Source: Mycoplasmataceae bacterium
Lineage (GTDB): Bacteria > Bacillota_I > Bacilli_A > Mycoplasmatales > Mycoplasmoidaceae
Reading direction: 5' to 3'
Assembly (NCBI GenBank): GCA_031275175.1
Contig: JAISPD010000017.1
Coordinates: 1-43,983, forward strand
DNA length: 43,983 bases
Below are positions 191 through 20,083 of the stretch, one piece after another. The notes below the pieces were generated by a model that worked only from the letters and a program-made list of their open reading frames with translations, did not search any database and was not told the origin of the DNA. Position 1 is the first letter of the stretch. Each line of letters opens with the position of its first letter. Made by a program: the position numbers and the translations under genes.

Positions 191-295
191 ATGACATTAC
201 TTAATTTGGTAAAGAAAATTGCAGGAGATGTTGAAGACATCAATGCTCGCTCGGACAAGCTCGAGGAGAGAGTTGCTAGACTTGAATTTCGTTAA
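191..295 (+). pseudogene. Truncated small coiled-coil protein, paralogue of the 19142-19351 protein
   Basis: A 34-residue reading frame starts at ATG 191 after a good ribosome binding site (AAGAGGA). Its N-terminus MTLLNLVKKIAGDV matches the internal stretch MILFNLVKKIATDV of the 69-residue protein on the minus strand at 19142-19351. It therefore corresponds only to the C-terminal, coiled-coil-like half (DKLEERVARLE). A stop codon at 167-169 prevents extension upstream. The DNA just downstream (306-335) also matches DNA downstream of the other family members, so the similarity includes the flank. It may be a remnant or a working short form; function unknown. Confidence 0.55.
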
Positions 296-305
296 ATTCA
301 CAATT

Positions 306-1456
<1,151 letters not shown>

Positions 1457-19126: not shown

Positions 19127-19153
19127 AATTGGTTAAATTGACTAGTTTGTTTG
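19127..19153 (-). repeat. 3' flank motif of the small-protein family, copy 3 (diverged)
   Basis: On the minus strand CAAACAAACTAGT overlaps the last codons and stop of the 19142-19351 gene and is followed by CAATTTAACCAA. It matches copy 1 at 306-335 best in the first 13 bases. Confidence 0.5.
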
Positions 19154-19351
19154 CTCTTTGAGTTTATTCGCCTTAACGAATTTGTCTAAACGTCTGTCAT
19201 GTTTTTTTAAATGAGTTTTGATGTTTCCTACATCCGTAGCAATTTTCTTTACCAAATTAAACAATATCATATTCTTAATTATAACTACTTCAAATTCAGT
19301 ATTTTCCAATTGCGGATCTGATGGATATTTAGTAATTTTGTATTTCGCCAT
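19142..19351 (-). CDS. Small unknown protein of a local paralogous family (69 aa)
   Basis: 69 residues, basic, without signal peptide or membrane segment. The N-terminus MAKYKITKYPSDPQ resembles MKQVKITKYNKDPK of the neighbouring gene at 19489-19677, and the ends RLDKFVKANKLKE and RLDNIVKMNNLKE also match. Its middle MILFNLVKKIATDV matches the truncated gene at 191-295. The second half looks helical and coiled-coil-forming. A ribosome site (AGAGAT) precedes ATG 19351. I do not recognise the family; a small cytosolic protein associated with a repeated or mobile element is one possibility. Confidence 0.6.
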   Translation of the reverse strand: MAKYKITKYPSDPQLENTEFEVVIIKNMILFNLVKKIATDVGNIKTHLKKHDRRLDKFVKANKLKEQTN

Positions 19352-19408
19352 AATTATCTCTTACATTCACTATTCAAAAATACATCACAGATTTATTAAT
19401 AAAAAGAA

Positions 19409-19454
19409 AAAACCAAGATAGGGATTCAAAGTTAATTAAATGTATCTTGGTTTT
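19409..19454. repeat. 12-bp inverted repeat between the two small paralogues
   Basis: AAAACCAAGATA (19409-19420) and TATCTTGGTTTT (19443-19454) are perfect complements around a 22-nt loop. The right arm is the end of the 3' flank motif, so the left arm is an extra inverted piece of it. It could fold as a stem in transcripts of the upstream small gene; no U run makes it a clear terminator. Confidence 0.45.
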
Positions 19455-19473
19455 GAATAAACTAGTGTGTTTG
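19443..19473 (-). repeat. 3' flank motif of the small-protein family, copy 2
   Basis: On the minus strand it begins CAAACACACTAGTTTATTC and ends AAAACCAAGATA. It is nearly identical to copy 1 (306-335) apart from single-base indels and one substitution, and lies about 15 nt downstream of the 19489-19677 gene. Confidence 0.6.
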
Positions 19474-19488
19474 ATTGCGAGATTTGAA

Positions 19489-19677
19489 TTACTCTTTAAG
19501 ATTATTCATCTTAACAATGTTATCCAAGCGAGCGACAATTGGCTTTAAGGCCTCTTGCATTGCTCCAGCAAATCAAGCAGGGACTTTAGGCCCTCTTGTT
19601 GGCTGAATTTCAACAACAATCTCGTCACCGACACGTTTAGGGTCTTTATTGTATTTAGTAATTTTTACTTGCTTCAT
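19489..19677 (-). CDS. Small unknown protein of the same paralogous family (62 aa)
   Basis: 62 residues from ATG 19677: MKQVKITKYNKDPKRVGDEI at the start, then VVVEIQPTRGPKVPAWFAGA and a helical end closing with RLDNIVKMNNLKE. The W codon (PAWFAG) is TGA, so under the standard code the gene would be missed. An alternative in-frame ATG is at 19683, but TATAAT (19686-19691, minus strand) lies only 2 nt from it and 8 nt from ATG 19677, which favours 19677 and a leaderless start. It is similar to the 19142-19351 protein at both ends but differs in the middle. Function unknown. Confidence 0.6.
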
Positions 19678-19685
19678 GCTCATAA

Positions 19686-19691
19686 ATTATA
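19686..19691 (-). promoter_or_regulatory. -10 box of the 19489-19677 small gene
   Basis: TATAAT on the minus strand, 8 nt from ATG 19677. Upstream of it lies ATCTTTTAGGGACGAAGT, loosely like the repeat at 67-115 (GGGACAAAGT, GATCTTTTAG). Confidence 0.4.
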
Positions 19692-19822: not shown

Positions 19823-20083
19823 CTATAACGGTGCCATCATTGTTGATCTACTTGGATATGCAGACATACGAATATATCCGTTATTTTGTCTAAATGCATA
19901 GTAACTTTTTTTATTTTGGTGTTCATTAGATGCTTTCGCTCTTTGTTTAGCATCAATAATTGAACTAGCTGTATGTGTTGCTGTACTGACGGCCATACTA
20001 ACTCCCATAATAATTACTCATAACAGCATTGGCGCAATTCCGCCCACTGTTTGTTTTTTATTATCTTTAGTCATTAATTCCAT
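19823..20083 (-). CDS. Small single-pass membrane protein, unknown (86 aa)
   Basis: 86 residues: a short charged N-terminus (MELMTKDNKKQT), one hydrophobic segment about residues 13-35 (GGIAPMLLWVIIMGVSMAVS), then a polar tail rich in Lys, Asn and Tyr ending SRSTMMAPL. Start ATG 20083 is fixed by a strong ribosome site GGGAGGT five bases upstream; the later ATG at 20008 lacks one and would remove most of the membrane segment. One TGA is read as Trp (LLWVII). It lies upstream of the two small paralogues in the same direction, with about 145 nt between, which holds nothing else recognisable. Function unknown. Confidence 0.6.

Follow-up and report, generated by a model that had tools for sequence, protein, structure and literature searches.

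A family of short modular coiled-coil genes in Mycoplasmataceae bacteria, possibly seeded by a conjugative element

Three related loci and their downstream block

The window, that is, the whole 43,983-nucleotide stretch analysed here, carries three loci of a family of short genes. Its open reading frames were translated with code 4 (TGA=Trp). Gene A (19142-19351, minus strand) encodes a 69-residue protein, MAKYKITKYPSDPQLENTEFEVVIIKNMILFNLVKKIATDVGNIKTHLKKHDRRLDKFVKANKLKEQTN, with an H3-type head, no P.WF motif and a T1-type tail; its closest relatives are a tandem pair in another genome of the genus (G003:C21, 59-60% identity). Gene B (19489-19683, minus strand) encodes 64 residues, MSMKQVKITKYNKDPKRVGDEIVVEIQPTRGPKVPAWFAGAMQEALKPIVARLDNIVKMNNLKE, comprising an H1 head (MSMKQVKITKYNKDPKRVGDEIVV), a P.WF motif and a T1 tail (RLDNIVKMNNLKE); its start at 19683 lies 6 bases upstream of the 19677 given in the original prediction. 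An AlphaFold2 model of gene B shows a helix at residues 36-59 with moderate confidence, and the head has a pLDDT of about 50. Locus C (191-295, plus strand) is a remnant or short copy of 34 residues counted from its ATG, MTLLNLVKKIAGDVEDINARSDKLEERVARLEFR, which is 46% identical to gene A over 35 residues.

Reading the sequence reveals a -10-like GATAAT (19353-19358, minus strand) immediately 5' of the gene A ATG, and a -10-like TATAAT (19686-19691, minus strand) 2 bases 5' of that of gene B. The spacing from TATAAT to ATG of gene B is near-identical in the C6, C23 and C4 copies of the same genome (G000), in which such a box is often found a few bases 5' of the ATG. The position of the box suggests that gene B may be transcribed as a leaderless mRNA, and the same would apply to the other G000 copies.

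The original prediction held that the three loci share protein ends and a downstream DNA block, and both sequence and BLASTN comparison bear this out. KITKY and RLD..VK.N.LKE are common to A and B, and LVKKIA.DV to A and C, whose DNA is 84% identical over 58 bp (BLASTN E 4e-10 among family loci). The downstream block begins with an exact 13-mer, CAAACAAACTAGT, at gene A (19141-19153, minus strand). It recurs with one mismatch at gene B (CAAACACACTAGT, 19461-19473, minus strand) and at locus C (307-319, plus strand), where the longer block AAAACAAACTAGTTATTCAAACCAAGATA (307-335, plus strand) retains only the 5' arm of a terminator and adjoins mnmA. Conservation beyond the coding region, as originally claimed, holds for B and C, in both of which the block lies in the 3'UTR. 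In A the block is partly coding and takes in the final codons together with the TAG stop, GAG CAA ACA AAC TAG reading LKE-Q-T-N-stop.

Behind gene B the block leads into an intrinsic terminator predicted by folding (19409-19454, minus strand), a hairpin formed by AAAACCAAGATA...TATCTTGGTTTT and followed by TTCTTTTT, with -15.9 kcal/mol and z = -5.8. The homologous terminator of the C23:22290 copy (z -4.1) folds like the gene B hairpin and carries a compensatory C-G to U-A change, which supports the suggestion of a common RNA 3' end for gene B; folding finds no hairpin behind the gene A tail block (z +1.4). Blocks related to the gene B tail also lie behind the C9, C14:2436 and C23:22290 copies. 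The longer block is significant within the genome (C tail against C9, E 1.5e-5; against C14, E 1e-4) and also follows copies in two other species.

Taken by itself, the 13-mer is a poor marker and barely exceeds chance expectation in the window, where six matches with up to two mismatches compare with 2.7 expected and 5 of 100 shuffles reach six. In the genome-wide search that the original prediction proposed, three of the six matches with up to one mismatch have no family gene recovered alongside. Within three mismatches it follows 4 of the 15 G000 copies and no copy in G033 (0 of 11) or G003 (0 of 20). The 'conserved DNA tail' is best read as the start of one common 3'UTR/terminator block.

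Further copies exist in the genome, an 833-kb draft: tblastn gives six matches to A and 11 to B, and a profile built from 15 members gives 16, dispersed over the genome as expected of the proposed duplicating unit. Of the 36 genomes sampled from the genus, 32 have at least one match to the same profile, with up to 26 per genome, and a narrower profile has none outside the genus among 198 genomes of 41 genera (own included) sampled from the order. Named relatives are 'Mycoplasmataceae bacterium' metagenome bins, which, judging by such bin names, may come from termite guts. Pfam, NCBIfam and PDB return nothing beyond generic coiled coil for the family. Gene B has no homologue in collections of phages, plasmids or viral contigs, and its protein matches no PHROG. 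PHROGs are matched by other members (best E 2.5e-13, two members), presumably through the coil, and we set aside as generic coiled coil the Pfam and PHROG matches to XhlA, DUF7310, COG6 and others.

Upstream of gene B lies a gene for an 86-residue membrane protein (19823-20083, minus strand), which we considered and rejected as part of the unit: it has one match per genome in 29 of the 36 genomes and adjoins family copies only in G000, G003 and G023. It adjoins mnmA in four other genomes (L181, L182, L184, L185). In the window this gene and mnmA (346-1464) are 18 kb apart, each with an adjoining family copy.

Modular units and exchange of their blocks

We read 117 copies from 14 genomes. The genomes are drafts, in which copies at contig ends may be collapsed; G033 and G004 have about seven copies each at contig ends, as expected because near-identical repeats break assembly. 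The proteins are short (about 60-210 residues), and the unit follows a regular order: a -10 box, an N-terminal head, commonly followed by a P.WF or L-rich helix, then a heptad coil and a C-terminal tail peptide, closed in many copies by a terminator hairpin. There are at least seven head types. The middle is a P.WF helix, an LDERIA-type or KELLLEF-type helix, or none, and the tails include VIKLNNLKTE, VFKRNNLK, DYMKSHP, EYNVQLNILKTPE and RLTNLETR. The coil varies in length between copies and holds 21-nt tandem repeats, with an array of 5.4 x 21 nt in L100 (one genome per species). Classed with hand-written patterns for head, middle and tail, the 84 fully classed copies display 27 combinations. 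Single copies are no longer intact: an early stop interrupts C14:55913, the C9 copy is divided between reading frames and locus C lacks a head.

Several further features lie beside these units. A hairpin, GGCATATTAC...GTAATATGCC, that encloses a GAAGGGATGG motif just 5' of the ATG is almost invariant ahead of the G033 heads (for example, L069 and L071; folding, -16.4 kcal/mol, z -4.0). A (CA)n microsatellite follows close 3' of the family gene in L088 (G023:C3, after 433062). In G000, a gene for a 1070-residue Cas9-like protein (C14:56643-59855), recognised by eye from its first residues, immediately follows a broken family copy and the remnant of an IS66-like transposase, and a CRISPR-like array with a 66-nt period (C9, about 8.2-8.7 kb) lies beside the family copy C9:7816.

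Common DNA between copies, which is the basis of our comparison, follows blocks rather than whole genes. C4:83235 and C4:84147 have a 126-bp 3' block in common at 92% and different heads. Gene B and C4:84147 have a common head (87% over 126 bp) and different tails and terminators, and gene B and C23:22290 a common 3' block (83% over 84 bp) and different heads. This pattern points to independent exchange of blocks within the unit, probably by segmental duplication and recombination and not by a self-mobile cassette.

An ordinary lineage-specific family, spread by tandem and dispersed duplication and divergence, might gain a modular look from its low-complexity coils. Tandem pairs and arrays do occur (A and B; G003:C5; G004:C12), and coil matches to unrelated Pfam families indicate that coils easily resemble each other. 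Against this, DNA identity extends to non-coding 3' blocks between genes with unrelated heads, and vice versa, and a single head in G033 occurs with middles and tails of three classes each. The block-wise identity largely refutes this account, and we consider it unlikely.

The heads are under strong purifying selection. Their dN/dS between paralogues is 0.074 in G000, 0.051 in G033 and 0.068 in G003; the G000 value is pooled over the gene B head, which is common to C4, C6, C14 and C23 copies. The T4 tail has a dN/dS of 0.074 across six genomes. It follows that the family does not consist of decaying repeat DNA. A pooled dN/dS of 0.79 for the KKETKILKADHNP head was not used, as the loose pattern mixed unlike heads.

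Association with an SSB-like gene and conjugative elements

An SSB-like gene precedes family copies in G000 (C23, C4), G003, G020, G024, G027 and G033, the start of each copy coinciding with its stop or lying no more than about 30 bases from it, and the two genes stand in the same order in G005:C48. The SSB-like protein has an OB-fold and 89-93 residues ending in ER-(V/L/I/M)-QVF. The ordinary SSB is present as well and is a different protein; one of three scanned SSB-like proteins matches Pfam SSB, at 18.5 bits and below the cut-off. A recurrent gene order places genes for 97 and 63 residues ahead of the SSB-like gene and the family gene. Large TraG/VirB4-type proteins are encoded near the copies in G020, G024, G027, G033 and G000:C4, the calls in G020 and G027 being made from the resemblance of their first residues to the G024 proteins. 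TraG-D_C is matched in G024:C63 and G033:C3 (E 6e-7), and the G000:C4 element has AAA_10/DUF87 and a weak TcpE match.

The majority of family copies lie outside conjugative elements, a family gene follows only a minority of the SSB-like genes examined, and the genus also has lone SSB-like genes. On a tree, the element-linked SSB-like genes cluster, needing three changes where shuffling gives a mean of 6.5 and reaches so low a number in 1 of 500 runs. Truncated SSB-like ends of 31 to 120 bp precede the C23:11754, C15, C2 and C14:2436 copies. These ends (NKLRLIGER, KLCLIGER) are of the linked type and do not match the lone gene of the same genome; no SSB-like fragment is present upstream of either A or B. 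It is mainly because dispersed copies carry linked-type truncated ends that we infer a spread of the family from the element.

A discrete mobile cassette, one form of the duplicating unit suggested in the original prediction, might carry the small gene from place to place and have the CAAACAAACTAGT block as its end. Such a cassette (MITE-, integron- or IS-like) would account for the many dispersed sites and for the 5' and 3' flanks that copies have in common, and one copy adjoins the IS66-like transposase remnant (C14:56105-56407, by eye). Aligning the copies to locate the ends of the unit gave no fixed borders, the 5' limits lying about 31, 40 and 120 bp inside the SSB-like gene and the 3' blocks being of several types. 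We saw no terminal inverted repeats at these borders, and the 13-mer is neither exact nor in every copy. We regard a cassette with its own ends as very improbable.

Candidate function and related systems

We favour, at somewhat better than even confidence, a family of short coiled-coil genes that was seeded by a conjugative element, was reshuffled by recombination and encodes oligomeric adaptors. The units would have been introduced by an integrative conjugative element and then duplicated ectopically, with the 3'UTR/terminator, the former 'conserved DNA tail', travelling along with the gene. Homologous recombination or gene conversion through common heads, heptad repeats and 3' blocks may have reshuffled them, and shuffling between copies may be ongoing. 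The heptad coil would hold the proteins together as oligomers that serve as adaptors, with the conserved head and tail as binding surfaces, such that mixing of modules alters the bridged partners. The original role in the element could have involved DNA transfer and the SSB-like protein encoded alongside. Our best guess at a function is thus that of a modular oligomeric adaptor.

The element-borne coiled-coil proteins and their dispersed variants on the chromosome could instead serve as exclusion or immunity factors that interfere with conjugative elements or phages, whether incoming or co-resident, with shuffling keeping pace. Their position at the end of a conjugative gene block behind the SSB-like gene, their copy number, the modular diversification with conserved ends and the copies near the Cas9-like gene and the CRISPR-like array in G000 would fit such a role. 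However, the heads are strongly conserved within a genome and not diversifying, and the Cas9 adjacency is a single case, and we think this role distinctly unlikely. The favoured account, an element-seeded and recombined family of adaptors, can be carried further in a tentative form that we rate as rather doubtful: an element-borne adaptor next to an SSB-like protein may have given the host lineage a combinatorial repertoire. Each genome would then hold at least a dozen promoter-head-coil-tail-terminator units, and their RepMP1-like reshuffling would yield strain-specific heterotypic coiled-coil assemblies. Such a repertoire might be used, for example, in element exclusion or in a cytoskeletal role.

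RepMP1/DUF16 (UPF0134) has been regarded as a repeat confined to M. pneumoniae. It is the largest paralogue family of a mollicute and has no known function (PMC3472980). Its genes have a conserved proximal block and a distal heptad coiled coil with a 21-nt repeat, short repeats lie in the intergenic flanks, and recombination couples the proximal portion of one gene with the distal portion of a second (PMC3472980). In the present family, too, recombination between paralogues appears to join a conserved 5' block to a coiled-coil 3' block that varies. The family does not belong to DUF16/UPF0134 (PF01519): among the members scanned the best score, in one protein and over the coil only, reaches 16 bits where the cut-off is 40, and DUF16 is absent among the Pfam matches of 15 members at E 0.01 or better. 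Unlike RepMP1/DUF16, it has several unrelated heads, conserved C-terminal tail peptides and a P.WF helix, is linked to an SSB-like gene and conjugative elements, and spans a whole genus rather than one species.

An unrelated family with RepMP1/DUF16 logic, in which dispersed short genes join an exchangeable coil to a fixed head, in another mollicute genus suggests that small shuffled coiled-coil genes arise repeatedly in minimal genomes. It provides a handle that M. pneumoniae does not offer, on origin through the element and on function through a possible SSB-like partner.

PARCEL/DUF285 elements are likewise modular coding repeats dispersed through mollicute genomes, and are repeats of extracellular lipoproteins. 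Unlike these lipoproteins, the present proteins have no obvious signal peptide by eye, and DUF285 is absent among the Pfam matches of family members.

The elements themselves resemble the Mycoplasma ICE (MICE/ICEA) in that TraG/VirD4- and VirB4-like proteins are encoded beside the family gene. The M. agalactiae ICEA is described as having 23 genes, with CDS5/TraG and CDS17/TraE, and a keyword search of that description finds no SSB (PMC6030558). The conjugative element of G000:C4 also encodes a GIY-YIG domain protein (85459-86046, E 1.6e-6).
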